Virus record (IMG/VR): IMGVR_UViG_3300034374_010865
Span: 1 to 35,183 of that record
DNA length: 35,183 bases
Direction: 5' to 3' (one strand)
Source: a virus
Part shown: piece by piece, positions 805 to 31,553 of the stretch
Position numbering within the stretch: position 1 is the first letter of the stretch
Layout: each line of letters starts with the position of its first letter
Notes under the pieces: model-generated
What the model was told of the DNA's origin: nothing
Databases searched by the model: none
What the model saw: only the letters and a program-made list of their open reading frames with translations
Made by a program: the position numbers and the translations under genes

Positions 805-2574
805 ATGGGTTTATCAAGAGAACAGGCTATACTCGAATATGCACGTTGTGTAAAGGATACTCCATACGCTCTAAAAACTTACCTTCAAACATACGATAAT
901 ACACAATCTCGTTACGTTCCGTTAGAATTATTTCCAGACCAAGAACACTTAATAAATGACTACGATAGTTTTGAGGAAAACATTGCCTTAAAATATCGTC
1001 AGGCAGGTGTATCTACAGTAACGTCTGCATGGGTATCAAAAAGATTGGTTACCGCCTCTAAAACAAAACCTGAAAAAATTCTTATTATTGCCAACAAATT
1101 AGATACATCTATGGAGATGGCAAACAAAGTTAGAGCTTTTGTTGACCAATGGCCAGGATGGTTTGGTGTTGGGTTTTCACAAGAAAAGAACTCACAAAGA
1201 CACTTTAAATTAACTAATGGTTGTGAGGTTAAAGCCGTTGCAACATCTAAAGATGCTTTGCGTGGTTATACACCTACTATTCTTATTTTTGATGAGGCTG
1301 CGTTTATTGATGCAGATGATGATTTCTGGTCTGCTTGTATGGCATCGTTATCTACGGGTGGTAAGGTAATAGTAATATCTACACCTAATGGTTTTGATGC
1401 AATTTATTATGCAATCTACGACCAAGCCTTAAGAGGAATGAATGATTTCCGTATTACTGAAATGTACTGGTATCGTGACCCTCGTTATGCAAAAGATTTA
1501 AAACTTATTAAGTGTAAAGATATAGTTCATTATATGCTCAATAGAGAAGATTATGACGATAATGAAATAATAATTGAATATGGTCATATAGACCCAATGA
1601 AGAGAGATTTTGAAGAAATTAAATCAAAATTTTCTGAAGGTTACAAACCATATTCGTCATGGTTTGAGTCTATGGCAAAAAAACTTAAGTTTGACCGTAG
1701 AAAAATTGCACAGGAATTAGAATGTAATTTCTTGGGTTCAGGTGACAATGTGATTCCACCTGAGACTGTAGAATTCTTAAGAGAGAATACTATTATGGAG
1801 CCTGAAAATAAGTTTATGGGTGGTGCAATGTGGCAATGGAAAGAACCCATTGAAGGTCATAAATATATTATGGGTATTGACGTATCTCGTGGTGATTCTG
1901 AAGACTTCACAACATTTTGTATTGTTGATTTTGATGAAAGAGAACAGGTTTTAGAATATTTGGGTAAGATTCCACCTGATGTTGCTGCTGAGGTTGCTTT
2001 TAAGTGGGCAACAATGTATAATGCTTTTGTTGTAATTGATATCACAGGAGGTATGGGTGTGTCAACATCACGTAAACTACAAGAAATGGGATATAAAAAT
2101 TTGTATGTTGATGGTGTTAATATGGCGGATAAATGGAAATATAATCCAAAAATGCATGAAAAGATTCCGGGATTAAACTTTAATTCAAAAAGGGTACAGA
2201 TTATTGCTGCTTTTGAAGAGGCTTTAAGACATAACTTTAAAGTACGTTCTAATAGGTTGTTAAATGAATTGGGTACGTTTGTGTATGTAAATGGTAGACC
2301 TGACCACCAAAAAGGACAACATGATGACCTTATTATGGCAATGGCGATGTCGATATATGTGGGTGAAAGTTCATTTAGTCAACTAGAAAAAGTAACAGAA
2401 CAGACAAAGGCGATGTTAGATAGTTGGTCTGTATCTACTAATGAATATAAACAGAAATCACAAGATTTTAATCCATCTATTCCGGTAATGCCAAATTCAA
2501 ATAATCATAGAGGTATGAATCAAAACCCATCAAGAAATGATTATGAGAAGTATTTATGGTTATTCGGTAAGTGA
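805..2574 (+). CDS. Terminase large subunit, T4 gp17-like
   Basis: This is the packaging motor that pumps DNA into the prohead and cuts the concatemer. The 589-residue length matches T4 gp17 (610). The N-terminal ATPase has a Walker A of the RQAGVST form (residues 65-71), which lacks the usual GK pair but is a known variant in phage terminases. Walker B is ILIFDEAAF (159-167), followed by an ISTPNG coupling motif. The C-terminal RNase H-like nuclease shows its acidic residues in GIDVSRGDSEDFT (D359), VVIDITGG, and HDDLIMA (D507, D508). The portal gene follows after 49 bases, the gp17-gp20 linkage usual in T4-like heads. No Shine-Dalgarno sequence precedes the ATG; the leader is A-rich, as in Bacteroidota. 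Confidence 0.95.
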   Translation: MGLSREQAILEYARCVKDTPYALKTYLQTYDNTQSRYVPLELFPDQEHLINDYDSFEENIALKYRQAGVSTVTSAWVSKRLVTASKTKPEKILIIANKLDTSMEMANKVRAFVDQWPGWFGVGFSQEKNSQRHFKLTNGCEVKAVATSKDALRGYTPTILIFDEAAFIDADDDFWSACMASLSTGGKVIVISTPNGFDAIYYAIYDQALRGMNDFRITEMYWYRDPRYAKDLKLIKCKDIVHYMLNREDYDDNEIIIEYGHIDPMKRDFEEIKSKFSEGYKPYSSWFESMAKKLKFDRRKIAQELECNFLGSGDNVIPPETVEFLRENTIMEPENKFMGGAMWQWKEPIEGHKYIMGIDVSRGDSEDFTTFCIVDFDEREQVLEYLGKIPPDVAAEVAFKWATMYNAFVVIDITGGMGVSTSRKLQEMGYKNLYVDGVNMADKWKYNPKMHEKIPGLNFNSKRVQIIAAFEEALRHNFKVRSNRLLNELGTFVYVNGRPDHQKGQHDDLIMAMAMSIYVGESSFSQLEKVTEQTKAMLDSWSVSTNEYKQKSQDFNPSIPVMPNSNNHRGMNQNPSRNDYEKYLWLFGK

Positions 2575-2623: not shown

Positions 2624-4480
2624 ATGGCAGAAAACAATTTAACAATATGGCAAAGACTCGGTCAAGTATTTGGTCCTGACTCTACTTTAGACCAACAAGC
2701 ACCCATATATAGGTTTGATAAGAAAGAACTCTTAAAGACTCCTAACAAACAGGATTATGAAAGAGAAAAACTTCAAGCACAACAATCCTTATATTTAGGT
2801 CAACAATGGACAAAGATTGAAAATAATCTTTATACACAAGCCGTTTACTACGAACCAACTAGACTTGCGTCTTATTACGATTATGAGAGTATGGAATATA
2901 CTCCTGAAATATCTGCCGCATTAGATATATACGCTGAAGAATCAACAACAACAAATGAAGATGGATTTATATTACAAATTTATTCAGAGAGTAAACGTAT
3001 TAAATCAGTTCTTGCTGACTTGTTCAACAATAGACTTGATATTAATACTAACTTACCTATGTGGACAAGAAATACTTGTAAGTTTGGTGACAACTTTGTC
3101 TATTTAAAGTTAGACCCTGAAAAAGGGATTATGGGTGGACAACAACTTCCTAATATTCAGATTGAAAGATTAGAAAGAGGTATGAAATATTCACCAAATA
3201 GGAGTAGTACAACCACAGAGAACGACGCTCTAAAATTCTTATGGAAAGATAAGGATATGGAGTTTAATACTTGGGAGATTGCCCACTTTAGATTATTGGG
3301 TGACGACCGAAAACTTCCGTATGGTACTTCTATGTTAGAAAAAGCAAGAAGAATATGGAAACAGTTATTATTAGCCGAAGATGCGATGTTAATATACAGA
3401 ACATCAAGAGCACCTGAAAGAAGGGTATTTAAAATATTCGTTGGTAACATGGACGATAAAGACGTTGAACCATATGTAAACCGAGTCGCGAATAAATTTA
3501 AAAGAGACCAAATTGTGGACCCATCAAACGGTAATGTGGATTTGAGATACAATCAGATGGCGGTTGACCAGGATTATTTTATTCCTGTTCGTGACCCAAA
3601 TGCACCAAACCCAATTGATACATTACCGGGTGCACAGAACCTTTCAGAGATTGCAGATATTGAATACATCCAAAAGAAATTGTTAACGGCTCTTCGTGTT
3701 CCTAAGGCATTCTTGGGATTTGAAGAGGTAGTTGGTGATGGTAAAAACCTATCATTACAGGATATTAGATTTGCAAGAACTATTAATAGAATTCAAAAAT
3801 CTATGATTCAAGAATTAAATAAGATTGCTATTATTCACCTTTATCTTTTAGGTTTTGAGGATGAATTAAACAATTTTACTTTAGGTCTTACCAATCCATC
3901 AACACAAGCAGACCTTCTTAAGGTTGAACAATGGCAACAGAAAATTCAGTTGTATCGTGATGCTACTACTGACCCAGGAAATGGTATATTACCTGTTTCA
4001 GCGTCATGGGCTAAGAAACACATTCTTGGGTTCTCAGATGAGGAAATTAAGTTGGATATTCAGCAACAACGTATTGAAAAGGCGGTTGCATCTGAACTTG
4101 AAAAGACTGCTGAGGTTATAACTAAGACAGGTATTTTCTCAAATATTGATAAATTATATGGTAACAAACCTGGTGAAGGAGGAAGTGCAACACCTGAAGG
4201 TGAAGTAACCGAACCTGCGGATACAGGATTTGGAGACCTTGGCGGAGGACTTGGTGATATGGGTGGAGGTGAGAGCACACCACCAGCACCTGACTTAGGT
4301 GGAGGAGGTGAAGAGGCGGCACCAGCACCTGAATTGGCACCTGAATCAAGAAACATGGACGATTTAAATTTGATACTTGAAGATGACTTATTAAGTGGTT
4401 TAGATACTTTAGATTTATCAAAAGGAAAGAAATCAATAAATGAAATAGACGATAAATTGAGCGAGTTGTTAAATTCGTAA
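2624..4480 (+). CDS. Portal vertex protein, T4 gp20-like
   Basis: This 618-residue protein should form the dodecameric ring at the packaging vertex, docking the terminase and later the neck. The N-terminal half has the family pattern of T4 gp20: YDYESMEYTPEISAALDIYA, then a segment around TTTNEDGF, and later WTRNTCKFGDNFVYLKLD. The central part holds the stem and crown regions, including LTALRVPKAFLGFEE. The C-terminus differs from T4: roughly residues 520-590 are a low-complexity Gly/Pro/Ala/Glu-rich stretch with repeated PAPELAPE-type units, probably disordered, followed by a short acidic helical tail. T4 gp20 is about 524 residues, so the extra length is mainly this tail. The gene sits between terminase and an unknown core-region gene, as in T4-like head modules. 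Confidence 0.95.
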   Translation: MAENNLTIWQRLGQVFGPDSTLDQQAPIYRFDKKELLKTPNKQDYEREKLQAQQSLYLGQQWTKIENNLYTQAVYYEPTRLASYYDYESMEYTPEISAALDIYAEESTTTNEDGFILQIYSESKRIKSVLADLFNNRLDINTNLPMWTRNTCKFGDNFVYLKLDPEKGIMGGQQLPNIQIERLERGMKYSPNRSSTTTENDALKFLWKDKDMEFNTWEIAHFRLLGDDRKLPYGTSMLEKARRIWKQLLLAEDAMLIYRTSRAPERRVFKIFVGNMDDKDVEPYVNRVANKFKRDQIVDPSNGNVDLRYNQMAVDQDYFIPVRDPNAPNPIDTLPGAQNLSEIADIEYIQKKLLTALRVPKAFLGFEEVVGDGKNLSLQDIRFARTINRIQKSMIQELNKIAIIHLYLLGFEDELNNFTLGLTNPSTQADLLKVEQWQQKIQLYRDATTDPGNGILPVSASWAKKHILGFSDEEIKLDIQQQRIEKAVASELEKTAEVITKTGIFSNIDKLYGNKPGEGGSATPEGEVTEPADTGFGDLGGGLGDMGGGESTPPAPDLGGGGEEAAPAPELAPESRNMDDLNLILEDDLLSGLDTLDLSKGKKSINEIDDKLSELLNS

Positions 4481-4501: not shown

Positions 4502-5236
4502 ATGACAAAATTCGGTATTATAAAAACTAAAATTGAAGAGTCTATGGCTAAACTCTACGGTAAAGAAGGGTTTAAGTCACATCTTAAGAACTTCAAAACA
4601 AAAGTTTTGGAAAATAAAAACTTATCAAACATATATTACATTTATGATGATTTATCATCTAAAAAAGGTATTGATAAGGAAATTGCCACAGAGTATGTTA
4701 ATGAGTCTATTGAACAATTACAATCATTAATTGAAAAGAGTAATAATGAAATTAAATCATTGTCTGAATGGATTGATACAATCATTAAAGATGATATGAA
4801 CAATTACTCAGATATTGATAATGTGGTTTATAATAACAAGTCAATTAAGAATTTAGAAAGTGTATTAGAATCTAAGAAGAATATTAAGAATGTTATTGTT
4901 TCAACAAAAGAGTCTAAAGTGGTAAAAGAGTCAATTAATATACCATTGTCGTCAATGTTAAAAATTGCATCTAATTCTTTCAATAAAGAATATGAGAATA
5001 TTAATGAATCTGAAAAAGAAGAATTAAAAAATTTATTGTCATTGTCTAAAGATGAGGTAAAGGTTAAATTTGAAGAATTAAAAGAATCTGTATTAAATAA
5101 ATTAAATTCAAATTTAAACGAAACTAACGATTCAGAAATCAAAGAAAAAATAGGATTAACAATAAACAAAATTTCTGAATCACAAAGTGATTTATTATCA
5201 CTTTATAAACTTAAACAATTAAATGAAGGATTATGA
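4502..5236 (+). CDS. Hypothetical coiled-coil protein in the prohead core region
   Basis: This 244-residue, highly charged protein is rich in Lys, Glu, Asn and Ser, with long predicted helical stretches (residues 65-95 and 150-225) and no membrane segment. The family is not recognised. It sits between portal and protease, where T4 carries the small core proteins gp67 and gp68, so a prohead core or assembly role is reasonable but rests on position alone. The leader AATATTTATTAAAAAAAAATATT is A-rich with no Shine-Dalgarno sequence. Its stop codon overlaps the next start (ATGA at 5233-5236), suggesting translational coupling to the following small membrane protein. Confidence 0.75.
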   Translation: MTKFGIIKTKIEESMAKLYGKEGFKSHLKNFKTKVLENKNLSNIYYIYDDLSSKKGIDKEIATEYVNESIEQLQSLIEKSNNEIKSLSEWIDTIIKDDMNNYSDIDNVVYNNKSIKNLESVLESKKNIKNVIVSTKESKVVKESINIPLSSMLKIASNSFNKEYENINESEKEELKNLLSLSKDEVKVKFEELKESVLNKLNSNLNETNDSEIKEKIGLTINKISESQSDLLSLYKLKQLNEGL

Positions 5237-5445
5237 AAAAAGTTTTAGAATTTATTAAGAAAATTTATTCAGTATGTAAGAACTGGGTCGTATCTAACGG
5301 AGTAGAAGGTGTATTAGGTCTTCTAGTTGGTTTAGTACTTTGGATTATGGGATACAAAATTTGGGCTGGATTTTCATTTGGTGTATTTGCTACACGCAAT
5401 TGGGATATCTTAAAAGCTTGGGTTATGTCTAAATTTAATAAGTAA
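5233..5445 (+). CDS. Small membrane protein
   Basis: This 70-residue basic protein has a hydrophobic central part (about residues 23-52, GVLGLLVGLVLWIMGYKIW and onward), enough for one or two membrane segments, flanked by Lys-rich ends. It overlaps the preceding gene by four bases (ATGA) and is followed by a strong hairpin terminator, so it ends the portal transcription unit. The family is not recognised. Small size, a transmembrane segment and a phage setting are compatible with a holin-like or inner-membrane anchoring role (for example a prohead assembly site at the membrane, as T4 gp40 provides), but nothing in the sequence decides this. Confidence 0.7.
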   Translation: MKKVLEFIKKIYSVCKNWVVSNGVEGVLGLLVGLVLWIMGYKIWAGFSFGVFATRNWDILKAWVMSKFNK

Positions 5446-5465: not shown

Positions 5466-5493
5466 AAAAAGGTGTCTTTCGACACCTTTTTTT
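5466..5493. terminator. Bidirectional hairpin terminator between convergent genes
   Basis: The arms AAAAAGGTGTC and GACACCTTTTT (11 pairs) enclose a TTTC loop, with a T run at 5487-5493 on the plus strand and an A-rich run on the left that serves the minus strand. It separates the membrane protein gene (plus) from the bS21 gene (minus). Confidence 0.85.
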
Positions 5494-5497
5494 GTTT

Positions 5498-5692
5498 TTA
5501 GTCTTTTAGACTGTCCTTTAATTGTTGAACGTATTTGGCTTTTTTGATTTTTTCTCTTTTTACCGTACACTTCTTTTTAAATTCTTGACGGTTACGAACC
5601 TCTTCCATTTGTTTGGTTTTGATGACCTTATACTTATAACGTTTAAGGGCTCTATCAATAGATTCGTTTTTTCCTACCTGTATTACTATCAT
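5498..5692 (-). CDS. rpsU: Ribosomal protein bS21, phage-encoded
   Basis: The 64-residue basic protein matches bS21 along its whole length: a start MIVIQVGKNESIDRALKRYK (family pattern for a small beta strand then helix), a central EVRNRQEF, and a Lys-rich C-terminal helix with KAKYVQQL. The pattern is closest to Bacteroidota bS21 proteins, which share the N(E/S)SIDRALKRYK and RxRQxF elements. In Bacteroidota ribosomes bS21 helps to sequester the 16S anti-Shine-Dalgarno tail; a Tyr at position 54, reported to matter for this in Flavobacterium, is present here. The gene stands alone on the minus strand inside the plus-strand head module, with its own promoter signals at 5704-5732 and terminator at 5466-5493. 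The ATG has no Shine-Dalgarno sequence. Confidence 0.9.
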   Translation of the reverse strand: MIVIQVGKNESIDRALKRYKYKVIKTKQMEEVRNRQEFKKKCTVKREKIKKAKYVQQLKDSLKD

Positions 5693-5703
5693 ATATTAAT
5701 ATT

Positions 5704-5732
5704 ATGATAATAAATATATTCATTGTAGTCAA
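5704..5732 (-). promoter_or_regulatory. Sigma70-like promoter for bS21
   Basis: Read on the minus strand: TTGACT (5732-5727), 17-base spacer, TATCAT (5709-5704). This would start the transcript within a few bases of the bS21 ATG. The -35 box is the left arm of the palindrome at 5727-5741. It is seen in sequence; activity is inferred. Confidence 0.45.
5710..5716 (-). promoter_or_regulatory. TATTTAT motif, candidate late promoter for bS21
   Basis: Minus-strand context GAATATATTTATTATCAT, starting 24 bases before the bS21 ATG. It overlaps the spacer of the sigma70-like promoter, so bS21 could have both an early and a late signal. Confidence 0.4.
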
Positions 5733-5741
5733 GTTTTGACT
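5727..5741. promoter_or_regulatory. Palindrome supplying both -35 boxes of a divergent promoter
   Basis: AGTCAA-gtt-TTGACT is a perfect inverted repeat with a 3-base centre. Each arm reads TTGACT outward, in the right place for a -35 box with a 17-base spacer on each side. It could also serve as an operator for a dimeric regulator. Confidence 0.55.
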
Positions 5742-5764
5742 TAGAGCTAAAATTGTTTTATAAT
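5736..5764 (+). promoter_or_regulatory. Sigma70-like promoter for the gene at 5799
   Basis: TTGACT (5736-5741), 17-base spacer, perfect TATAAT (5759-5764). The expected start near 5771 leaves a leader of about 28 bases before the ATG. This is the textbook sigma70 form, not the Bacteroidota TAnnTTTG form. Confidence 0.55.
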
Positions 5765-5798: not shown

Positions 5799-6239
5799 AT
5801 GAAAAAAGGTAAAACATCTAAGTTAAATGTTTTTGAAAATGCTAAATGTTATTATGGTACAGTAGATTCTAAAGAATTAAAAACAATTTATATAGTTATT
5901 CAATCATGGGTTGAACCAAAAAAAGAAGTACAAAATTGGGATAGAGTAACGGGTAATTTAAAAAGACAAATTCAACATAATTTATTAGAAAGTGTTGATT
6001 TGATAACATTTGAAAAACATTCAATAGTTGATTTAGATTTAAGGACTAGCGGAATACAAATGGATAAGAGGTCATTTATGAATTTAGAAATAACTCTATT
6101 TTTAAAAGATAAAAATCAAGATTTTAAATCACTAATTTTAAGAGATAAAATAAAAACAATAGTAACGTCAGTATATAAGGACGAGTTGTATAATTCCACA
6201 TATTTTACATTATCAAAAAGTAAAACCAAAAAGGTTTAA
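5799..6239 (+). CDS. Hypothetical protein, 146 residues
   Basis: A soluble basic protein with alternating hydrophobic strands in the middle (IYIVIQSWVEP, VDLITFEKHSIVDLDL, FMNLEITLFLKD) that suggests a beta-rich domain, and a Lys-rich end. The family is not recognised. An earlier ATG at 5789 meets a stop after seven codons, so the ATG at 5799 is used. It is the first gene of a plus-strand run leading to the prohead protease and has the sigma70-like promoter at 5736-5764. Its TAA stop runs directly into the next TATTTAT motif. Confidence 0.75.
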   Translation: MKKGKTSKLNVFENAKCYYGTVDSKELKTIYIVIQSWVEPKKEVQNWDRVTGNLKRQIQHNLLESVDLITFEKHSIVDLDLRTSGIQMDKRSFMNLEITLFLKDKNQDFKSLILRDKIKTIVTSVYKDELYNSTYFTLSKSKTKKV

Positions 6240-6676: not shown

Positions 6677-7405
6677 ATGAGAATATTAGGACCACAAGAT
6701 ACAGGTAAAGGAATATTAGTAGAATGGGATGCTGGGTATGTGTCACCACAAGATTCAAGAAATGCTGAAGTAATTAAAGAATCATACGGACAATTAGACC
6801 ACTCTAAGCCATTTGTATTTTATGCCGTTCTTCAAAAATATGACACACCAAACAGAAACGGTCGTATTTACCCTGAACCAATTTTACGTAGAGAAGTTGA
6901 AAACTATAAGAAGGCAATTGATAAAGGTTTATCTATTTCAGAATTAAATCACCCTGAATCATCATTAATTGATTTGGACCGTGTATCACACCTTATTACC
7001 GACATGTGGTGGGAAGGAAATACTTTAATGGGTAAGATTAAACTTTTAACTTCACCTGGTTTCCACGAAAGAGGTGTTGTTTCATGTCCTGGTGATATGG
7101 CAGCAAACCTAATGAGACAAGGGGTAACTATGGGTGTTTCATCTCGTGGTGTAGGTTCATTGGTTAAGAAAGGTGAAAGAAATGAAGTTCAAGACGATTT
7201 TGAATTAATCTGTTTTGATTTGGTATCATCGCCATCAACACCAGGTGCATATTTGTTCTTAAATAAGGATGATAAAAACAGATACGATGAGAATTTAGAA
7301 GAGGAAACTAAGTTAAGAGCTCAAGAGCCAAGAATAGATGGTGGAAAAGGTTTAAACAAATCGCTTGACTTAATGAAGAAATTGTCCGATTATTTAGGGT
7401 ATTAA
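6677..7405 (+). CDS. Prohead maturation protease, T4 gp21-like
   Basis: This serine protease cleaves scaffold and capsid proteins during head maturation. The 242 residues match the family (T4 gp21 is 212). Family landmarks are YDTPNRNGRIYPEPIL (about 54-69), the catalytic His in ISELNHPESS, and the catalytic Ser in GVTMGVSSRGVGS (about 149-161), followed by the strand DFELICFDLVSSPSTPGAY. It lies between the portal and scaffold/capsid genes, as in T4. The C-terminal tail is charged (EEETKLRAQEPR) and may be trimmed by self-cleavage, as in T4. Its expected substrates are the acidic core protein at 7761 and the capsid protein at 9120, which carries a matching cleavage site. Confidence 0.93.
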   Translation: MRILGPQDTGKGILVEWDAGYVSPQDSRNAEVIKESYGQLDHSKPFVFYAVLQKYDTPNRNGRIYPEPILRREVENYKKAIDKGLSISELNHPESSLIDLDRVSHLITDMWWEGNTLMGKIKLLTSPGFHERGVVSCPGDMAANLMRQGVTMGVSSRGVGSLVKKGERNEVQDDFELICFDLVSSPSTPGAYLFLNKDDKNRYDENLEEETKLRAQEPRIDGGKGLNKSLDLMKKLSDYLGY

Positions 7406-9119: not shown

Positions 9120-10952
9120 ATGGGAGCATTATTAGAATCAGGTCTTGTTGGTAACATCGGTCTTAAGCACTTGAAAGTTATCAAAGAAGACACAATCAAC
9201 AAATGGGACAAATTAGGATTCTTAGAGGGTCTTAAAGGTCACGTTAAAGAAAACATGGCTCAGTTGTATGAAAACCAAGCTTCACACTTAATCAACGAAG
9301 CTGCATCAACTGACAATTCAGGTTCATTCGAAACTGTTGTTTTCCCAATCGTTAGAAGAGTTTTCTCTAAATTATTGGCAAACGACATCGTTTCTGTACA
9401 AGCTATGAACTTACCTATCGGTAAATTGTTCTACTTCGTACCTAAAATTCAGGGTTATGATACAGCTACTGTATATGACAATCCTCACTACGCACCTTTC
9501 GGGGCACCAAATGCAAGTGCATCACAAACTCCAGAATCAGGTTACTCTACAGGTAAAAACTTGTATGACCGTTTCTACGAGGGTGACGAACCAACTTTGG
9601 ACCCTCCAGGATTATTCGACTATTCAAAAGGAGCTTATACTTCTGTAACTTCTAACGCAGTAACTCAAGTATGGTCTAATGGCGAATTAGTTGAAGGTGT
9701 ATACACTACTATTAATGGTGGTACTACAGCTGGTGCTACTACAGGTGGTCCAATCCACAGAAAAGCTATCATTGCATTGTCAGGTTTCTCAAGTGCAGGA
9801 CAAGGTAAACTTATCGGTCCTGATGGAAACGAACAAGATACGGAAACTTTCTTATCTGACTTACAAGTTAAGGCTGTACAAACTACAGGTGCATTCTCAG
9901 GTTTGGGTACATCTGCACTTATCTTCAGAGTTGTTACTCAGAAATATGGTAAGGGTATTGTTCAGTACGGTACTAACACACAGGCTTCATGGCCTGGTTC
10001 AGGTAACGGTGGTTACTACGATAACATCTGTGATGCTAATGGTATCATTTACTTAGAAGTTGACTGTCAAGTTCCTGCATCTATTGGTGCAGCATCTCTT
10101 GATGGATATTCAGGTATAACTTTACCTTCAAATGCGGCACCAGCTGCAGGACAGTTCACATGTACTTATAGAATCTATAAGAACTTGGAATTCGAAGATG
10201 AGATTGGTGAAGTTTCATTTGACTTAGAGTCAGTAACTGTTTCTGTTACAGAAAGAAAGTTGAGAGCTCAATGGTCACCTGAATTAGCACAAGACGTTTC
10301 TGCTTTCCACAACATCGACGCTGAAGCTGAATTGACAGCTTTATTGTCTGAGCAAGTGGCGGCTGAAATCGACCGTGAAATCTTAAGAGACTTGAGAAAA
10401 GGTGCAGCTTGGACATTACGTTGGGACTACAACGGATGGAAGAGAGGAACTGCAGCTAATCCATTAACTCAATACACTCAGAAAGACTGGAACCAAACAT
10501 TAATCACAGCTATCAACCAAATCTCTGCTCAGATTCACAAATCTACATTGAGAGGTGGTGCTAACTGGATTGTTGTTTCTTCTGAAATCTCTGCAATCTT
10601 TGATGACTTGGAGTACTTCCACGTTTCAAATGCATCTCCAGACCAAGACCAGTACAACATGGGTATCGAGAGAGTTGGTACTTTGGCAGGTAGATATCAG
10701 GTTTACCGTGACCCATACTTCCCACCTAACACAGTATTGTTAGGACACAAAGGTAACTCTTTGTTGGATACAGGTTACGTTTACGCACCATATGTACCTC
10801 TTCAGTTGACTCCAACTATGTACAACCCATTCAACTTTACACCTATCAAGGGTATCATGACAAGATACGCTAAGAAAATGGTTAACAACCGTTTCTATGG
10901 TAGAATCATTGTTGATGGTGTTAGAACATTCGACTTGAGAGAATTGAGATAA
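9120..10952 (+). CDS. Major capsid protein, T4 gp23-like
   Basis: The main shell protein, 610 residues against 521 in T4. The N-terminal part has a basic/helical propeptide, then SFETVVFPIVRRVFSKLLAN and VSVQAMNLPIGKLFYF, both gp23 hallmarks. The C-terminal part has AAEIDREILRDL, LRGGANWIVVSSEISAI and the end FYGRIIVDGVRTFDLRELR. A protease site of the T4 type (Leu/Ile-x-Glu) occurs at IN-E60/A61, close to the T4 cleavage at E65. The extra length is mostly a Gly/Thr/Ser-rich insertion at about 155-330, probably a surface domain. The codons favour AAC, ATC, TTC, TAC and GAC far more than neighbouring genes, as expected for the most expressed gene. The leader is ACTTAAAAAAATACTAAA, without a Shine-Dalgarno sequence. 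Confidence 0.96.
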   Translation: MGALLESGLVGNIGLKHLKVIKEDTINKWDKLGFLEGLKGHVKENMAQLYENQASHLINEAASTDNSGSFETVVFPIVRRVFSKLLANDIVSVQAMNLPIGKLFYFVPKIQGYDTATVYDNPHYAPFGAPNASASQTPESGYSTGKNLYDRFYEGDEPTLDPPGLFDYSKGAYTSVTSNAVTQVWSNGELVEGVYTTINGGTTAGATTGGPIHRKAIIALSGFSSAGQGKLIGPDGNEQDTETFLSDLQVKAVQTTGAFSGLGTSALIFRVVTQKYGKGIVQYGTNTQASWPGSGNGGYYDNICDANGIIYLEVDCQVPASIGAASLDGYSGITLPSNAAPAAGQFTCTYRIYKNLEFEDEIGEVSFDLESVTVSVTERKLRAQWSPELAQDVSAFHNIDAEAELTALLSEQVAAEIDREILRDLRKGAAWTLRWDYNGWKRGTAANPLTQYTQKDWNQTLITAINQISAQIHKSTLRGGANWIVVSSEISAIFDDLEYFHVSNASPDQDQYNMGIERVGTLAGRYQVYRDPYFPPNTVLLGHKGNSLLDTGYVYAPYVPLQLTPTMYNPFNFTPIKGIMTRYAKKMVNNRFYGRIIVDGVRTFDLRELR

Positions 10953-11022: not shown

Positions 11023-11853
11023 TTAAACAACCGCAAGTTGTTCTTCTTTCATTAATTCATATGCTCTAGCTAAACGAGTCATACCGATTCCACCTCCAAA
11101 ACGAGGGAAGAAATTAAACGATAAGAATTCTTCCAATTCTTTTTCAACTCTTTCTTTACCAAACAGTTCAAACAACTTGGCGGAATAACCACCATTTTCG
11201 ATTGTATAAAACATTTCTCTCATTTCTTCAACATTAGAGGAACGTTCTGCCGAACCTATAGTTTCTTGACCATATAGAATAACATCTACTTTATTAAAGA
11301 TACCATCTCCTTTGTGTTTCATATTCCAAAAAGGGTTTGTTCTTAATGGAAAGTGTTGTAATGAAACAACCGAACCTTTTTCGTCCCACATTCTTTGTTC
11401 GTGTTCATTCTCTAAAATTCTCACACCACCATATTCTTCACATACATCATTATAGTCAACTTCTACAGGTTCATCAAAACCTAACCATTCTAATAATTCA
11501 GACTCAAGTTTTAACATTTCTTCGATTCCACCTTTTGATTCAAATTCAAACATAGGGAAGATAAGTTCGTGCCTACCTGGTATTGGTTCTTTCTCTTCTC
11601 TGTAAGATGTTGAAACACAGAATACACCTTCCCACTCAGGGTTTTTAAGTAATTCATACTCCAACCACATTTGACCTGTTTGTGGTAATGGCCAAATTTC
11701 ACCTGAGTATTCAAAGGTTTTTACAGAGTGTGGATTTTCACACGCAGCCAAAATTGATAATCTACTTTGTGTAGGAACTTCTTTGAAGTTTTTGTTTAAG
11801 AAGAATTCTCTCATCTTCTGTACTAATTCATTGTACGTTTTTGTGTTTTTCAT
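11023..11853 (-). CDS. AsnRS-like class II synthetase core without anticodon domain (possible asparagine synthetase)
   Basis: The 276 residues form a class II catalytic core. Motif 2 is TSYREEKEPIPGRHE (R85, E87), with the following MFEFE strand. VDVILYGQETIGSAERSSN matches the ATP/amino-acid segment that reads EIIGGSQRE in AsnRS/AspRS. Motif 3 is GGGIGMTRL (R260). True AsnRS proteins are 430 residues or more with an N-terminal OB-fold that binds the anticodon; that domain is absent, and the protein opens directly with the catalytic domain. Archaeal asparagine synthetases related to AsnRS have this same short form, so it may make asparagine from aspartate, or adenylate another acceptor. It is transcribed alone, between two terminators, away from the head genes. 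The leader is A-rich. Confidence 0.82.
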   Translation of the reverse strand: MKNTKTYNELVQKMREFFLNKNFKEVPTQSRLSILAACENPHSVKTFEYSGEIWPLPQTGQMWLEYELLKNPEWEGVFCVSTSYREEKEPIPGRHELIFPMFEFESKGGIEEMLKLESELLEWLGFDEPVEVDYNDVCEEYGGVRILENEHEQRMWDEKGSVVSLQHFPLRTNPFWNMKHKGDGIFNKVDVILYGQETIGSAERSSNVEEMREMFYTIENGGYSAKLFELFGKERVEKELEEFLSFNFFPRFGGGIGMTRLARAYELMKEEQLAVV

Positions 11854-24825: not shown

Positions 24826-25797
24826 TTATAATTTATAAAAATTTAACCAATAATCAATCATTTCATCCATCATAGTCTCAAAAGTGTATTTTGGCGACCA
24901 TCCGGTTTGTGTTCTTAATTTTGTCGAATCTCCCTTTAAATCATTAAGTTCTTCAGGTCTTAAGAATTTTTCATCTTGTTTTACATAATCCCGATAATCT
25001 AAACCTAATTTATTAAAAGTATATTCACATAAATCTCTTACTGTATGTGAAATACCTGTTGCACATACATAATCATTTGGACTATCTAACTGAAGTATCA
25101 TCCACATTGCTTCTACATAATCCTTAGCATGACCCCAATCTCTAGTTGCGTCTAAGTTTCCTAATTTTAATACATTTGATAGTCCTAATTTTATTTTAAC
25201 GGCTTCTTTAGCAACTTTGTTTGTTACAAAGTTTGTACCTCTTCGTGGAGATTCGTGATTAAAAAGAATTCCATTAGAAACAAATAGGTTATACGAATTT
25301 CTGTAATTTCTACAAATGTTATAACTAAACACTTTTGCACATCCGTATGGGGACACTGGGTTCATTGGGGTCGTTTCTCTTTGGAAACCGTCCTCATCTA
25401 TTGAGTTACCAAACATTTCAGATGAGGATGCCTGATATACTTTACTATCTGGTTTAATCATTCTTACAGCCTCTAACAAATTTAACGACCCTAATCCTGT
25501 TACGTTTGAGGTGTAAATTGGTTGGTCAAATGAGATTCTTACATGTGATTGAGCAGCTAAATTATATATTTCATCAGGCATTACTTTTTGTAAAACAGAT
25601 ATAAGCGATGATAAATCTGTCATATCTGCATAATGCAAAATAATTTTGTCAAATATTCCGTCTAATCTTGCAGTTTGATTTTCTGCTACAGAATTTCTTT
25701 TTAATGTACCATGTACTTCATATCCTTTATCTAACAAGAACTCGGCCAAGTATGAACCATCTTGTCCGTTAATTCCTGTAATTAACGCTTTTTTCAT
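24826..25797 (-). CDS. gmd: GDP-mannose 4,6-dehydratase
   Basis: The 323-residue SDR enzyme converts GDP-D-mannose to GDP-4-keto-6-deoxy-D-mannose, the precursor of GDP-fucose, colitose, perosamine and rhamnose. The NADP-binding GINGQDGSYLAE (8-19) is the Gmd form of the Rossmann loop. Catalytic residues are visible: S124-S126 with E127 (QASSSEMFG) and Y151/K155 (SPYGCAK). The signature NGILFNHESPRRGTNFVT and the LGNLDATRDWGHAKDYVEAM loop are diagnostic. It lies two bases downstream of the ColD-like gene, and PhoH follows after 25 bases. Phage-encoded Gmd is known; here it is in one cassette with the two following pathway steps. Confidence 0.95.
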   Translation of the reverse strand: MKKALITGINGQDGSYLAEFLLDKGYEVHGTLKRNSVAENQTARLDGIFDKIILHYADMTDLSSLISVLQKVMPDEIYNLAAQSHVRISFDQPIYTSNVTGLGSLNLLEAVRMIKPDSKVYQASSSEMFGNSIDEDGFQRETTPMNPVSPYGCAKVFSYNICRNYRNSYNLFVSNGILFNHESPRRGTNFVTNKVAKEAVKIKLGLSNVLKLGNLDATRDWGHAKDYVEAMWMILQLDSPNDYVCATGISHTVRDLCEYTFNKLGLDYRDYVKQDEKFLRPEELNDLKGDSTKLRTQTGWSPKYTFETMMDEMIDYWLNFYKL

Positions 25798-25798
25798 A

Positions 25799-26953
25799 TT
25801 AAGAATGTTTGTTAATTATATCTGTTATTTTTTGTATATCGGTTTCCGTTAGGTCTTGATGATTTGGTACGTAAAAACCATAATCATCTAATAATTGACA
25901 ATTTTCTAATTCAACTCTACCGTATTTTAAATACCACATTGGTTTATTTGCCATATTACCTGCAATTAATGGTCTAACTTCAATGTTATTATTAATAAGC
26001 TCTTCAACAATCTTATTTCTATTTTTGTTAAGAATAGGTATTGCAAAACTTGATATAAAATCAGTATTTCTTGTATCTAATTGTAATTGATTAGATTTTA
26101 AATTTGACTTGTAAAATAAAAAGTTTTTATTTCTTATTTTACTATAGTTGTCTAATTTTTCTATAGCCCTTAATCCAATAAATGCTTGTAAATCTGTAGA
26201 ACGTAAGTTCATACCTGGTACGTAAAAATTATATAGAGAATCAAAATCTGAAGATTTATATTTGTTTCTTAATTCTTCTTGTGTTTTTCTTGGTAAATCC
26301 CTGTCCCAACCATGACTTCTCATCATTAATAATAAGTGATAAAATTCTTCATCATTTGTATTAATAAACCCTCCCTCTATTGTTGATAAGTGATGTCCAA
26401 AATACATGGAATAAAAAGACGCCAAACCAAATGAACCTAAATATTTACCATTAAATTTAGAACCCATACTTTCACAAACATCTTCTAATAATATTACATC
26501 ATAGTCATTACAAAGTTTTAGTACCTTGTCCATTTCTGGTACCAATCCCAAAGGTGATACCAATATTAAAACTGATGGATTTTCTTTTTTAAATAACTCT
26601 TCTAAATGATTTAAGTCACAAGACAAATCATCTAAATTACAATCACATAAAAAAGTCTCATACCCTAATAACATTGGACTACTTACATCGGTAGCCCAAC
26701 TCAAACCTGGTACAATTATTTTATTATTTTTTAATTTATTTGAATGTAAAAGGGCTGCTAATGTTAATAATATTGACGATGAACCCGAGTTTACAAAAAC
26801 GGAATACTTTGTACCCATTTTCTTTGCCCATTTTTCTTCAAGCTCAATAGTTAACTCACCTTTTGTTAATCTAGGAATCTCATCTTGAGATAACCATTCT
26901 ATTAAATGATTTATATCATTTTTATCGATTGTATCGCTGACTAATTTTATCAT
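25799..26953 (-). CDS. ColD-like PMP-dependent sugar 3-dehydratase (DegT/DnrJ/EryC1 family)
   Basis: 384 residues, fold-type I DegT family. The PLP-pocket Asp is present (LLEDVCESMG, D158). At the place of the PLP-binding Lys (six residues before the E of EGG) stands His187 in MYFGHHLSTIEGG. That substitution marks the ColD/E1 branch, which uses unbound PMP to remove a 3-hydroxyl instead of transferring an amino group. With Gmd next door its natural substrate would be GDP-4-keto-6-deoxymannose, leading to GDP-colitose. It is not a perosamine synthase, which needs Lys. The first 32 bases overlap the Fcl-like gene upstream. The RSHGWDRDL segment recalls related dehydratases of capsule clusters. 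Confidence 0.88.
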   Translation of the reverse strand: MIKLVSDTIDKNDINHLIEWLSQDEIPRLTKGELTIELEEKWAKKMGTKYSVFVNSGSSSILLTLAALLHSNKLKNNKIIVPGLSWATDVSSPMLLGYETFLCDCNLDDLSCDLNHLEELFKKENPSVLILVSPLGLVPEMDKVLKLCNDYDVILLEDVCESMGSKFNGKYLGSFGLASFYSMYFGHHLSTIEGGFINTNDEEFYHLLLMMRSHGWDRDLPRKTQEELRNKYKSSDFDSLYNFYVPGMNLRSTDLQAFIGLRAIEKLDNYSKIRNKNFLFYKSNLKSNQLQLDTRNTDFISSFAIPILNKNRNKIVEELINNNIEVRPLIAGNMANKPMWYLKYGRVELENCQLLDDYGFYVPNHQDLTETDIQKITDIINKHS

Positions 26954-27830
26954 AAACTTTTTTTATACCTTTATTAAAAGGTAATGGTTTAAAATTTATA
27001 AGTAAATCTTTTAATTTTTGAATTGATACATCTTTCCTATATTGACCATCAGGCTTAGTAATGTCAAAATTTAGTTTAATGTGATTTAAATTTAATTCGT
27101 TTAGTGATATCTCAGCCATTTGTCTTATTGATAAATTTTCTTCGGTAGCAACATTGAAACTTTCGTAGATTTCTTTTGTTAAACATTCATTAATTACCCA
27201 AGCCAAATCATCTGAATGCATGAATTGTCTTAATGGGTTACCGGTCCCAAATAAATTTATTTCATTTTTTTCATTAACAACTGCGTTGTGTATTTTTTCT
27301 AAAAGTGCAGAAACAAAATGACTGTTGTGACCTACTTTGTCATTTTCACCATACAAATTACATGGAGTTAAATATTGATATTTTGTACCGTATTGTTTGT
27401 TTAATGCATCTATTTGTACCGCCAAACATCTTTTTGCGTATCCATATGAAAAATTTGTAATCGTTGGTGGACCTAAATGTAAATCTTCTTCAGACATAGG
27501 ATATGTATCAACTTTATCGGGATAGATACAAGTAGATAAAATTCCAATAAATTGTTCTACATTATTTTTAAAAGAATGTTCGACCATCAATGTATTCATT
27601 TGAACATTATCAACAAAATATTGATATGGTCTTTCAATATTATCTATAATACCACCAACTCTAGCGGCTAAGTGTACGACCTTTTTTGGTTTATATGTTT
27701 TAAACATTTTGATTACGTCTTCTTCTTTTGTTAAATCGTAATCTTTAGATGAAATGTATATGGCATCGGGTAATAATTTTTTTAAAGATTGTCCAACCAT
27801 TCCTGAACCTCCGGTTACTAAAATTTTCAT
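26922..27830 (-). CDS. GDP-fucose synthase or GDP-colitose synthase (Fcl/ColC-like)
   Basis: 302 residues from the ATG at 27830. An ATG eight codons upstream (27854) would overlap the previous gene and puts residues before the Rossmann start, so KILVTGGSGMVGQ is taken as the N-terminus. The SDR epimerase-reductase has catalytic Ser99, Cys101 (STCIYP), Tyr129/Lys133 (YGYAK), ARVGGI and a His in NSHFVSALL, matching Fcl residues Ser107, Cys109, Tyr136, Lys140 and His179. The Cys/His pair indicates C5 (and, in Fcl, C3) epimerisation. ColC acts on the ColD product and is homologous, so which name fits depends on the neighbour. RQFMHSDDLAWVI and KPDGQYRK are also family signatures. Confidence 0.9.
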   Translation of the reverse strand: MKILVTGGSGMVGQSLKKLLPDAIYISSKDYDLTKEEDVIKMFKTYKPKKVVHLAARVGGIIDNIERPYQYFVDNVQMNTLMVEHSFKNNVEQFIGILSTCIYPDKVDTYPMSEEDLHLGPPTITNFSYGYAKRCLAVQIDALNKQYGTKYQYLTPCNLYGENDKVGHNSHFVSALLEKIHNAVVNEKNEINLFGTGNPLRQFMHSDDLAWVINECLTKEIYESFNVATEENLSIRQMAEISLNELNLNHIKLNFDITKPDGQYRKDVSIQKLKDLLINFKPLPFNKGIKKVYDKISQRYNR

Positions 27831-27840
27831 TTTGTTTAAT

Positions 27841-28716
27841 TTATAAAAAAGCATTTATTTGTTCTGTAATTTCTTCAAAAGTATTGTCCTCTACCCAATT
27901 TTTTTTAAATAAAATTTTTGTAGTTTCTTTAGGTAACCAATTAACAATGTCCATTTTATGTCTACAACTTGTCATATTGGTTAAAACCATATTCTTTTTT
28001 AATCCTGCGGCCATTGGCCAAATACCACTATCCGTAGATACAAAAACTTTACAGGTCGACAAACAATATAAATCATCCATCATGTTTCTATCCTCATATT
28101 GTGCAAAATCTATAATGTTTTCATGTACAGGTAAGGGAGTTTGTTTTGAATCACCAAGTCTAATAACTTTGTAACCTAAATTAGCATAATAAAGTGAAAT
28201 TTTAAAAAAAGTATCAATATTTATAAATCTTTTATTTTCAAAATTTGCACCATCAATTCGTTTATCAAAAGTTCCTTTTTCTCTAAACTGAATTACAATT
28301 GCGTTTTTTGGTAAGTTATGTTTATTTTGGTATGTTTCATGAGGAAATTCAAGAGAGGCTTCAGGTGTGTGTTTTAAATCTGACCACATTGCTGGATATT
28401 TTAATCCGTTATAGGCGTATGGTTCAGGCATATAAACATCCTTGTACTCATCAAGTGAAAAAAAATTATTTTTTAAAATTGTACCAACATTACTAATATT
28501 AATATTATTAAAAATCTCTTTTGGTATTAGTTTTATATCCTGCTCTTTTACATTTTTAATACATAAGGCAAAATACTTTTGAAATTCGTTTTCAACATAA
28601 ATCTTAGGTTTTACATCTGGATTTAAATGTAAGAATTTAGATAGTCCAACAGTATGTTCTGCTGAATTACCTAAAGCATTTTCATGTCTCCATATTGCAA
28701 ATTTTAATTCTCCCAT
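27841..28716 (-). CDS. TIGR04372-like putative glycosyltransferase
   Basis: 291 residues. The C-terminal half has the pattern of the TIGR04372 family of putative glycosyltransferases: IVIQFREKGTFDKR, then GYKVIRLGDSKQTPL, NIIDFAQYEDRNMMDDLYCL, CKVFVSTDSGIWPMAAGL and VLTNMTS. The donor and acceptor are not known. The fold is GT-B-like. Its start overlaps the HAD gene upstream by 13 bases, and 10 bases separate its end from the Fcl-like gene. This type is often placed in surface polysaccharide clusters, consistent with the setting. Confidence 0.75.
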   Translation of the reverse strand: MGELKFAIWRHENALGNSAEHTVGLSKFLHLNPDVKPKIYVENEFQKYFALCIKNVKEQDIKLIPKEIFNNINISNVGTILKNNFFSLDEYKDVYMPEPYAYNGLKYPAMWSDLKHTPEASLEFPHETYQNKHNLPKNAIVIQFREKGTFDKRIDGANFENKRFINIDTFFKISLYYANLGYKVIRLGDSKQTPLPVHENIIDFAQYEDRNMMDDLYCLSTCKVFVSTDSGIWPMAAGLKKNMVLTNMTSCRHKMDIVNWLPKETTKILFKKNWVEDNTFEEITEQINAFL

Positions 28717-29345
28717 CCTAAATATTTTTTTATATTTTGTGGTGTGTGATTAATTTTGTTTTTAACTAAAGCGTCAATGTATTTATCAATCGCCAATACT
28801 AACATGGGTCTTTTTTCTTTAAAAAGGTATTCTGATTTTTTTCGTAATTCCACTAATCTTTCATCATCTTTACACATGGCCATTTCGTCCTCTAAGTACC
28901 AATATCGGATGTGTACAATACATAATTTATCAATTAATTCGGAAAATGTATCTGTGTGGATATTATCATAATTTGGGAATTTATTGTCTTTAAGTATTGA
29001 GTCTACAAAGTTACTTATTTTATCATCTATTATTTCACCGGCAGTTAAATCGTCAAAAAATGATTTATCCGAATTTGCCTTATCATCAATTAATTTATCG
29101 TAGTGTAATTTTTTACCAACTCTTAGTTCATGATATTTTACACCCCACGAGTCTAATTGATTTTTTGTTACATCATACCAATCTATTTTTGTTTGAGCAC
29201 CTCTAGCTGTATCAATAATAATAGTATTACCATCGTCATATAGTTTATTTACAATGTTAATACGTTCAATTATTGGTTCTGCTTTATCATACTCACTTTT
29301 TGTTAGTGTGCATAAAGTACCGTCTAAATCAAAGCAATATATCAT
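28704..29345 (-). CDS. HAD phosphatase fused to a helical C-terminal domain
   Basis: 213 residues. The first 95 hold a compact HAD phosphatase of the capsule type: DLDGTLCTLT (nucleophile D6, D8), TARG (motif II), and KLHYDKLIDDKAN (Lys and DD). After a linker the C-terminal half (about 115-205) is helical, with IDKLCIVHIRYWYLEDEMAM and RLVELRKKSEYLFKEKRPML. This recalls the DUF4254-type helical domain seen in glycan clusters, but I cannot confirm it. The phosphatase would remove a phosphate from the NeuB-type 9-phosphate or another sugar phosphate. Its start overlaps the NeuB gene by 17 bases. Confidence 0.8.
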   Translation of the reverse strand: MIYCFDLDGTLCTLTKSEYDKAEPIIERINIVNKLYDDGNTIIIDTARGAQTKIDWYDVTKNQLDSWGVKYHELRVGKKLHYDKLIDDKANSDKSFFDDLTAGEIIDDKISNFVDSILKDNKFPNYDNIHTDTFSELIDKLCIVHIRYWYLEDEMAMCKDDERLVELRKKSEYLFKEKRPMLVLAIDKYIDALVKNKINHTPQNIKKYLGWEN

Positions 29346-30162
29346 TTGTCTTTCTTAGTTTTTTGATGATAGGTAATTCACTATCATAAACTACCTTAAT
29401 GCCATCACCTAAAACATTTTCCATTTTTCTTATACCTTCAACTAATTCCTCAACATTCTCAATAGAGGCAGATTGGTCAGAGCCATACATAGTTCTATCT
29501 AAAGTAATGTGAAATTCAATACATTCTGCTCCAAGAGAAACTGCACCAAACATAGGAACTAAACCACTATGGTGATTTGAAAATCCAATTTTGTATTGTG
29601 GATATTTTTGAGATAGTGTTGTGATATATCTTAAATTCATTTCTTCTTCTTTTGTTGGGTAAGTACTTGTACAAGCCAAAACATATTCAACATTATTTAA
29701 AATATTTAATGCTGCTTCAATTTCCTCTTCATTTGACATACCTGTTGAAACAATTATAGGTTTACCTGTAGCATTCAATTTTTCTAAAAATGATTTATCG
29801 GTTAATAGTGCCGATGCAATTTTATGGTATTTTACGTTTAGATTAGATTCAACTAAGTCTAAACTAACTTCATCCCAACAAGAAACAATAAAATCAATAC
29901 CAATTTCATTACAATAATTTTCAATTTCTTTATATTGTTCAATTGAAAATTCAATACCTTCTTTTTGTTCCCTAAATGTAGTGCCCCAGGGGGATTCTCT
30001 GTGTGATGATAATTCTTCAGGTGTATAGACAGAGTCAATATCTCTTTTTTGAAATTTAACTGCGTTACAACCAGATTCTTTAGATTTTTTTATCAATTCT
30101 TTGGCTATATTCATATCACCATTATGATTGATTCCGATTTCTGAAATAATGTAAGTGCTCAT
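29329..30162 (-). CDS. neuB: NeuB-type nonulosonate synthase without SAF domain
   Basis: 277 residues. The enzyme condenses a sugar with phosphoenolpyruvate to a 3-deoxy-ulosonic acid. The TIM barrel is complete: SEIGINHNGD, SGCNAVKFQKRD, HKIASALLTD, IVSTGMS, CTSTYPT, GFSNHHSGL and EFHITLDRTMYGSDQSASIE. The common form reads EKHFTLD and GxDHxAS; here it is EFHITLD and GSDQSAS, a recognised subtype. The C-terminal SAF (antifreeze-like) domain of NeuB/SpsE (about 70 residues) is missing, so the protein stops after the barrel. SAF normally completes the active site of the partner subunit, so a different substrate is possible. It lies in a cassette with isomerase, SDR and cytidylyltransferase. 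Confidence 0.9.
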   Translation of the reverse strand: MSTYIISEIGINHNGDMNIAKELIKKSKESGCNAVKFQKRDIDSVYTPEELSSHRESPWGTTFREQKEGIEFSIEQYKEIENYCNEIGIDFIVSCWDEVSLDLVESNLNVKYHKIASALLTDKSFLEKLNATGKPIIVSTGMSNEEEIEAALNILNNVEYVLACTSTYPTKEEEMNLRYITTLSQKYPQYKIGFSNHHSGLVPMFGAVSLGAECIEFHITLDRTMYGSDQSASIENVEELVEGIRKMENVLGDGIKVVYDSELPIIKKLRKTNDILL

Positions 30163-30167
30163 AATTT

Positions 30168-30740
30168 TTATTTTTTAAACATTTTATTTTCTACAATTTC
30201 TAATACTGTGTGTCCAATTAACATGTGACATTCTTGAATTCTTGCCGTATCTTCTGATGGGATTACTATCGATATATCAGACATGTCTTTCATTAATCCT
30301 CCATCTCTACCAAGAAATGAAACAACAAACGCGTCAGGATTAGATTCAATTAATTTTATTATATTTTTAGATTTTCCTGATGTAGATAAACATATTACCA
30401 CATCACCTTTTTTAAATGATGATTTAAACTCTCTTGAAAATATTTCTTCATAAGAATAGTCATTAGCCACTGCAGTAAGATATGATAAATTAGAACCTAA
30501 TAATACTACTTCTAATGGTTCTCTATCAAAATAAAATCTACCATTTAGTTCTGCCGATAAATGTTGTGAGTCTGCAAAACTACCACCATTACCACAGAAA
30601 TAAATCTTATTTCCATTTTTATATGTTTCAATAATAATATTACTAATTTCATATATTTTATTGATAATATTCTCATCATTCAACAATGATGTTTTTAATC
30701 TGATTGACTCAGATATGTTGTTTTTAATTGTTTCTACCAT
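30168..30740 (-). CDS. gmhA: SIS-domain isomerase, GmhA-like
   Basis: 190 residues, the length of sedoheptulose-7-phosphate isomerase. Hallmarks: CGNGGSFADSQHLSAEL (49-65), GRFYFDREPL, VANDYSYEEIFSRE, CLSTSGKSKNI (phosphate-binding), and DTARIQECHMLIGH with the metal/catalytic Glu and His. The enzyme should interconvert a ketose and an aldose phosphate. No heptose kinase or adenylyltransferase (HldE type) is visible, so it may feed the NeuB branch instead of ADP-heptose. It overlaps the SDR gene by seven bases. Confidence 0.88.
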   Translation of the reverse strand: MVETIKNNISESIRLKTSLLNDENIINKIYEISNIIIETYKNGNKIYFCGNGGSFADSQHLSAELNGRFYFDREPLEVVLLGSNLSYLTAVANDYSYEEIFSREFKSSFKKGDVVICLSTSGKSKNIIKLIESNPDAFVVSFLGRDGGLMKDMSDISIVIPSEDTARIQECHMLIGHTVLEIVENKMFKK

Positions 30741-31552
30741 ACTGTTTTTCCTCCATCAATTATTAAATTAGTACCTGTCATATAGCTACTTGCATCAGAA
30801 CACATAAAGACAATAGCCCCCTTATATTCGTCAATGTGTGCCATTCTCCCCATCGGAATAATGTTAGATAATTTTTGTACAAATTCATCTGGGTGGTCAT
30901 TATATACACCAGTTGGACTTAGACAGTTTACTCTTATGTTATCTTTGGCAAAATATGTTGCCAAATATTTTGTCATACCAATAACTGCCCATTTTGCTGC
31001 TGAATATGTTATTGGTTTTACGTTTTGTAAGTTTTTAGGTTTGGTCGGGTCTTCATAAATTCTTTGGTCAGGTGCTATAACACCCAAATCTGAAGATATA
31101 TTTAAAATAACTCCACCACCTGTCTTTAACATTTTATTTGATATGCATTGTGATACTAAGAATGTGCCGTTAATTATTGCATCAATACCTTCAGAAAAAT
31201 AGTCAAAAGTCATTTCTTCAAACCTACTATCGGGTGTAAGACTTTTATCATCTTTTGTAACCTTTGGGTCTTTTGCTGCGTTATTAATTAAAATATCAAT
31301 TTTTGGAAATTTAGATATTACATCATTTATTGATTTTTTATCGACAACATCCATGTATTGGTAAAAAACTTTTTCCTTACCAAACTTTTCACTTAAATAA
31401 TTAAACTTTTTTATAAGTGAATTTAAATCTACATCGGTTAATATTACAGATGCACCAAATTCTAATAAAGCTTCAGCATGTTTAGGTCCAAGTAACCCAC
31501 CGGCTCCTGTAACCAACGCAACTTTATCCGTTAAATCAAAATAATTTACCAT
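30734..31552 (-). CDS. Short-chain dehydrogenase/reductase
   Basis: 272 residues of classical SDR type. Cofactor loop VTGAGGLLGPKHAEAL (TGxxxGxG), NNAAKDP (NNAG variant), catalytic Ser in ILNISSDLGV, YSAAK (Tyr and Lys), and the IRVNCLSPTGV end. It is most similar in build to PtmA-type oxidoreductases found in flagellin nonulosonate clusters, but the similarity is by recall. It would oxidise or reduce a sugar intermediate. It is located between the TIM-barrel gene and the GmhA-like gene, two bases after the former. Confidence 0.88.
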   Translation of the reverse strand: MVNYFDLTDKVALVTGAGGLLGPKHAEALLEFGASVILTDVDLNSLIKKFNYLSEKFGKEKVFYQYMDVVDKKSINDVISKFPKIDILINNAAKDPKVTKDDKSLTPDSRFEEMTFDYFSEGIDAIINGTFLVSQCISNKMLKTGGGVILNISSDLGVIAPDQRIYEDPTKPKNLQNVKPITYSAAKWAVIGMTKYLATYFAKDNIRVNCLSPTGVYNDHPDEFVQKLSNIIPMGRMAHIDEYKGAIVFMCSDASSYMTGTNLIIDGGKTVW

Positions 31553-31553
31553 A

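Follow-up and report, generated by a model that had tools for sequence, protein, structure and literature searches.

A Bacteroidia-type bS21 gene in the head module of a phage, its Shine-Dalgarno state and its candidate control elements

The window analysed here, the whole of a virus record of 35,183 bases, contains a gene for the ribosomal protein bS21, which lies alone on the minus strand inside a plus-strand module encoding the terminase large subunit (terL), portal, protease and major capsid protein (MCP). With a promoter-like element and a terminator of its own and its opposite orientation, the gene appears to form a self-contained cassette. It is reasonably likely that this cassette is expressed late together with the head genes, and that its product replaces host bS21 on the 30S subunit and keeps the anti-Shine-Dalgarno (anti-SD) sequence hidden. 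The arrangement and the replacement, which were the core idea of an earlier sequence-only reading of the window, have already been published, and only details of control are new. The novelty looks to be the control of the cassette, with a shared ATATTTAT element, a covarying terminator, a conserved divergent TTGAC-N17-TATAAT site and a fixed slot from which bS21 is missing in three relatives. The genes concerned are the following.

805..2574, plus strand: terminase large subunit
2624..4480, plus strand: portal protein
4502..5236, plus strand: ORF of 244 aa between the portal gene and the bS21 slot, retained by relatives, including those without bS21
5233..5445, plus strand: ORF of 70 aa downstream of bS21 and convergent with it
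5498..5692, minus strand: bS21 gene, 64 aa, with Tyr54 and the phage signature KVIKTKQ at residues 22-28 (from family profiles, alignment and protein comparison)
5799..6239, plus strand: ORF of 146 aa divergent to bS21, with no database family or named fold
6677..7405, plus strand: head maturation protease
9120..10952, plus strand: major head protein (major capsid)

The bS21 gene starts with an ATG at 5692, stops at 5498 and encodes MIVIQVGKNESIDRALKRYKYKVIKTKQMEEVRNRQEFKKKCTVKREKIKKAKYVQQLKDSLKD. The product exceeds the curated cut-offs of Pfam PF01165 (E 2.3e-10, 40.4 bits; cut-off 27) and of the NCBIfam model TIGR00030 (35.5 bits; cut-off 28.95), and the flanking head genes are on the plus strand, which bears out the earlier description of a complete bS21 gene placed in opposite orientation within the head module. 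Values of dN/dS between relatives range from 0.03 to 0.13, pointing to purifying selection and thus to a functional gene. In the PDB, the F. johnsoniae ribosome provides the top match with its bS21 chain (7jil, 1.6e-13), whereas the third-ranked sequence and those below reach about 2e-5, and no closer bS21 from outside the Bacteroidota was found in this check. The alignment of the two proteins spans residues 1-63 without a gap and pairs Tyr54 of one with Tyr54 of the other, and the tyrosine noted earlier is thus seen in the translation as well as in the alignment; by residue identity, it would take the position that stacks on A1534. With a profile of phage bS21, one set of genomes, which is also part of the class Bacteroidia draw, gave scores of 72-98 bits; the remaining genomes of the phylum draw did not exceed 56 bits. 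Judged by these similarities, the window bS21 appears to be of Bacteroidia type, as had been proposed, and closer to bS21 of the class Bacteroidia than to that of other bacteria. Similarity of bS21 and gene content would make the host a Bacteroidia bacterium. An AlphaFold model of the isolated protein consists of three helices (pLDDT 91), the arrangement of which is not fixed (pTM 0.46). A structure search with this model matched only bS21 chains, at an rmsd of about 10 Å, and superposition on the F. johnsoniae protein was abandoned, since Tyr54 is not placeable at such a distance.

We compared 110 bS21 proteins of phages with 125 of hosts, all of them distinct. An aromatic residue occupies position 54 in about 99% of the phage proteins (Y 90%, H 8%, F under 1%), and a tyrosine in 97% of those of the hosts. 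A near-complete split between phages and hosts is found at residues 8, 21, 23, 24, 27 and 28, with a Jensen-Shannon divergence of 0.83-0.99. From host to phage, E/D is replaced by K/N at residue 8, F by V at 23, E/D by I/Y at 24, G by K/R at 27 and V/T by Q at 28; segment 21-28 reads R-K-F-D/E-K-T-G-x in hosts and x-K-V-I/Y-K-T-K-Q in phages. This set of residues extends the one given by Chen et al. (PMC9723584). The median net charge is +13 for phage and +10 for host bS21. In a tree calculated from 62 columns, in which many forks are open, 66 phage rows form one branch (support 100/97) apart from the Bacteroidia hosts, and the window bS21 falls within its own phage clade and outside any host genus. 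A few other phages are scattered among the hosts, and bS21 was therefore probably taken up more than once. Two Bacteroidia genomes (L309 and L338) encode a host bS21 with Arg instead of Tyr54 (NRAIRRQ); both genes lack an SD, and anti-SD sequestration may differ in these bacteria.

The slot of the cassette was compared in 80 loci obtained by a portal search. In 67 of them a bS21 can be detected, which always lies on the opposite strand and starts 0.9-2.2 kb past the portal gene. Ten loci, in which the sequence reaches no more than 0-1.4 kb beyond the portal gene on its downstream side, contain neither bS21 nor the 146-aa neighbour, and three (L255, L262 and L286) contain the neighbour without bS21. 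As these three relatives, with a portal identity of about 70%, do without bS21, the lineage does not depend on it, which counts against the reading favoured below. No ORF of note is present in the slot of L262 and L286; in L255, a short minus-strand ORF with a lipoprotein-like start (MSTFIILIIVLLLSSCKNYS) occupies it, between the portal and the 146-aa gene. The neighbour probably corresponds to bS21_CN of Chen et al., who suggest a function as dedicated bS21 partner for it; this function was rejected in view of the three loci that keep the neighbour without bS21, and the 146-aa gene is thus not tied to bS21. Its structure, predicted with good confidence, yielded no named fold, and the best PDB match in a second look (Z 7.5) was at background level. 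Foldseek returned two weak phage-neck matches, and the one clear structural relative of the model is an uncharacterised myovirus protein.

Elsewhere, the window carries a PhoH gene and, on the minus strand (24826-34686), a run of surface-sugar genes of nonulosonic-acid type, which encode dehydratases, a DegT aminotransferase, a NeuB synthase, a SIS isomerase, an MptE/sialyltransferase-like protein and a fusion of a cytidylyltransferase with a class IV aminotransferase. Neither the Rfam scan nor the tRNA scan gave a match anywhere in the window. A protein of 276 aa (11023-11853, minus strand; phrog_29758) possesses the catalytic core of class II tRNA synthetases of the Asp/Asn type (PF00152, 1.8e-12) and apparently no anticodon domain; it is 76-91% identical across 80 viral loci on contigs of up to 464 kb, an unusual conservation for a phage gene, and it may be asparagine-synthetase-like or a modifying ligase.

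Four elements surround the bS21 gene.

5466..5491, bidirectional: intrinsic terminator separating bS21 from the 70-aa ORF that converges on it (2 found, 0.1 expected)
5704..5732, minus strand: sigma70-like TTGACT-N17-TATCAT on the bS21 strand, with TTGAC kept in close relatives only; probably fortuitous
5710..5717, minus strand: ATATTTAT, promoter-like element of the phage group upstream of bS21 (from strand bias and conservation)
5736..5764, plus strand: promoter-like TTGACT-N17-TATAAT facing the divergent 146-aa neighbour, conserved in relatives

In the window, ATATTTAT starts on the sense strand 14-42 bases upstream of seven genes (0.3 expected); it precedes bS21 as well as genes of the head module at 4502, 6677 and 7761. 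No other 8-mer is as sense-biased across 46 phage loci, in which it is found upstream of 180 of 615 genes in sense and of 12 in antisense orientation. Upstream of bS21, the exact word is present in 55 of 116 main-group copies and the form ATATTT[AG] in 83 of 116, compared to 11% of shuffled leaders. We infer that ATATTTAT acts as a promoter late in infection; that it is shared by bS21 and head genes is only indirect evidence for late co-expression. Upstream of phage head genes, the leaders contain two further strand-biased words, AAATAAAC (67 times in sense, 0 in antisense) and AATAAACT (43 and 0), which are possible transcription start or leader signals. The dual promoter signals named in the sequence-only reading are both present; however, the sigma70-like promoter on the bS21 strand had to be dropped, since the region contains 8 such sites with 8.2 expected by chance and TTGAC on this strand is conserved in close relatives only. 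Conserved near bS21 are instead ATATTTAT at 5717-5710 and the TTGAC-N17-TATAAT site of the opposite strand, in which TTGAC is found in 96 of 106 relatives and at least five of the six TATAAT positions in 61 of 106, with a spacing of mostly 17. The terminator after bS21 forms a perfect hairpin in six close relatives, and two-sided changes at 4 of its 11 pairs reveal covariation.

An SD was called when the duplex energy with the anti-SD core was -8 kcal/mol or lower. The bS21 leader TATTATCATAATATTAATAT consists of 9 A, 10 T and 1 C, and is therefore A/T-rich, not specially A-rich; without a single G, its duplex energy with the anti-SD is +2.9 kcal/mol, which confirms that no SD precedes the ATG. 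The extended SD before the start, which characterizes autoregulated rpsU of the F. johnsoniae type, is likewise absent. SDs were found in 7 of 122 phage bS21 leaders, compared to 52 of 58 rpsU leaders of the closest hosts, mostly Flavobacteriales (Fisher p 1.5e-30, which is not a strict probability, as the sequences are related). In a class-wide sample of Bacteroidia rpsU (L290-L374), 20 of 76 leaders have an SD, and SD control is thus far from universal in the class. Phage genes carry an SD in 11 of 615 cases over the phage loci and in 1 of 35 in the window, where the leaders contain 54% A (38% in the coding strand) and 71% A at position -3. The missing SD had been regarded as specific to this gene; as a general statement this was rejected, because its absence is the default in the window phage and in most class-wide rpsU. 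The claim holds in comparison with the Flavobacteriales only, and SD absence is informative only if the host belongs to this order. In two loci of the main phage group (L250, 3445-3627; L261, 3194-3376, minus strand), bS21 has a strong SD (AAAGGAGG) directly after ATATTTAT, which is the sole strong SD in each locus; SD control may have been kept or regained here.

According to the reading that we favour, bS21 would be a cassette in a fixed head-module slot of a large myovirus lineage and would be co-expressed with the head genes late in infection, a timing suggested by the metatranscriptomes of related phages in Chen et al. Its product would displace host bS21 on host 30S subunits, and ribosomes carrying it would still hide the anti-SD and keep favouring SD-less, A-rich leaders. 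The anti-SD would stay hidden because the aromatic residue 54 is kept, and this conservation, together with the SD-less, A-rich phage leaders, argues for a hidden anti-SD rather than for a ribosome opened to SD messages. The earlier suggestion that the phage copy could keep the anti-SD sequestered fits the aromatic residue found in about 99% of the 110 phage copies. The phage-specific residues 21-28 would probably change contacts near the mRNA path; this segment is the best candidate for a phage-specific effect, and Chen et al. place that part of bS21 where mRNA would bind. If the reading is correct, the window would provide a well-conserved further case of a phage ribosomal protein suited to the unusual translation initiation of its host.

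Other explanations were weighed against this reading. Phage bS21 might merely be supplied to 30S subunits that are new or poor in bS21 while the host is shut off, completing them and leaving mRNA choice unchanged. Strong purifying selection and the retention of A15, L16, K17, K20, K22, K40, R46, A52 and Y54, which are invariant in 24 phage and host proteins, are consistent with such a supply; however, the clade-diagnostic replacements at residues 8, 21, 23, 24, 27 and 28, which are missing in hosts, would not be needed for it, and we consider it unlikely. A switch based on the SD is doubtful, too: translated from an SD-less mRNA that a head-gene promoter drives, phage bS21 would go on being loaded into ribosomes with the anti-SD hidden, host rpsU would be held down and the pool would turn over to the phage form. 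This idea builds on host rpsU of Flavobacteriales being translated best by bS21-poor ribosomes via its SD. Apart from this switch, the comparison turns a published idea into a prediction: Flavobacteriales control their own bS21 through the SD and nearly all phage copies lack one, so that phage bS21 is expected to be produced at times when production of the host protein stops. Mizuno et al. (2019; PMC6375957) could show that bS21 of the pelagiphage HTVC008M enters E. coli ribosomes, which retain about 5% activity. This result speaks against the favoured reading, as replacement may poison ribosomes instead of redirecting them. A dominant inhibitor, which on entry into host ribosomes would depress host translation as a whole (shut-off) without steering among mRNAs, would also agree with the consistent phage-clade swap in residues 21-28 and the median net charge of +13 versus +10. 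However, the activity test crossed phyla, from a Pelagibacter phage to E. coli, the contact residue 54 of the anti-SD is kept, and expression with the head genes, at the time of greatest phage translation need (PMC9723584), speaks against a general poison, making an inhibitor quite improbable. An extra-ribosomal role, in which a small basic protein that binds nucleic acid would serve in the head, perhaps as capsid cargo, or would be injected along with the genome, is suggested by the head-module position, the shared cis element, the net charge of +13 and the packaging raised by Chen et al. (PMC9723584), but is very improbable, since ribosome-facing residues including Tyr54 are kept and separate bS21 acquisition by other phage lineages fits ribosomal use better.

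Replacement of host bS21 with the anti-SD kept hidden is thus preferred, and its closest precedent is the work of Chen et al. (2022; PMC9723584). There, 47 phage genomes, the complete ones of up to 331 kb, carry bS21 on the reverse strand in the terL-portal-protease-MCP region, Bacteroidetes hosts are predicted, and every copy has an aromatic residue 54 and a divergent N-terminal half. bS21 is highly expressed late in infection alongside structural genes in metatranscriptomes of related phages, substitution into host ribosomes is proposed, and virion packaging is raised as a possibility. The anti-SD logic of the Bacteroidota, which the sequence-only reading held to be specific to the window, is already contained in that paper and in McNutt et al. 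(2023; PMC9976891), who also discuss phage bS21. The window shares with the phages of Chen et al. (clades a-e, freshwater Bacteroidetes) the reverse-strand bS21 among terL, portal, protease and MCP, the aromatic residue 54, the divergent N-terminal half, a divergent hypothetical neighbour, PhoH, a DegT aminotransferase and surface-sugar genes, and the departure from host bS21 around residues 21-28, here at 21, 23, 24, 27, 28 and 8. A DNA match of the window was not found in the phage collection, from which the genomes of Chen et al. may be absent. In contrast to the sections of Chen et al. considered, cis elements, terminator and SD state are described here, and the neighbour occurs without bS21 in three loci. 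Like HTVC008M bS21 (PMC6375957), the window protein is borne by a large myovirus; however, the host phylum differs, and entry into E. coli ribosomes was shown for HTVC008M bS21. With bS21 of F. johnsoniae, its best PDB match, it shares the length of 64 aa and Tyr54. F. johnsoniae rpsU has an extended SD and is better translated by ribosomes that lack bS21 or the Tyr54 contact (PMC9976891). The phage gene differs in residues 21-28 and has no extended SD, and the published SD autoregulation should therefore not apply to it.
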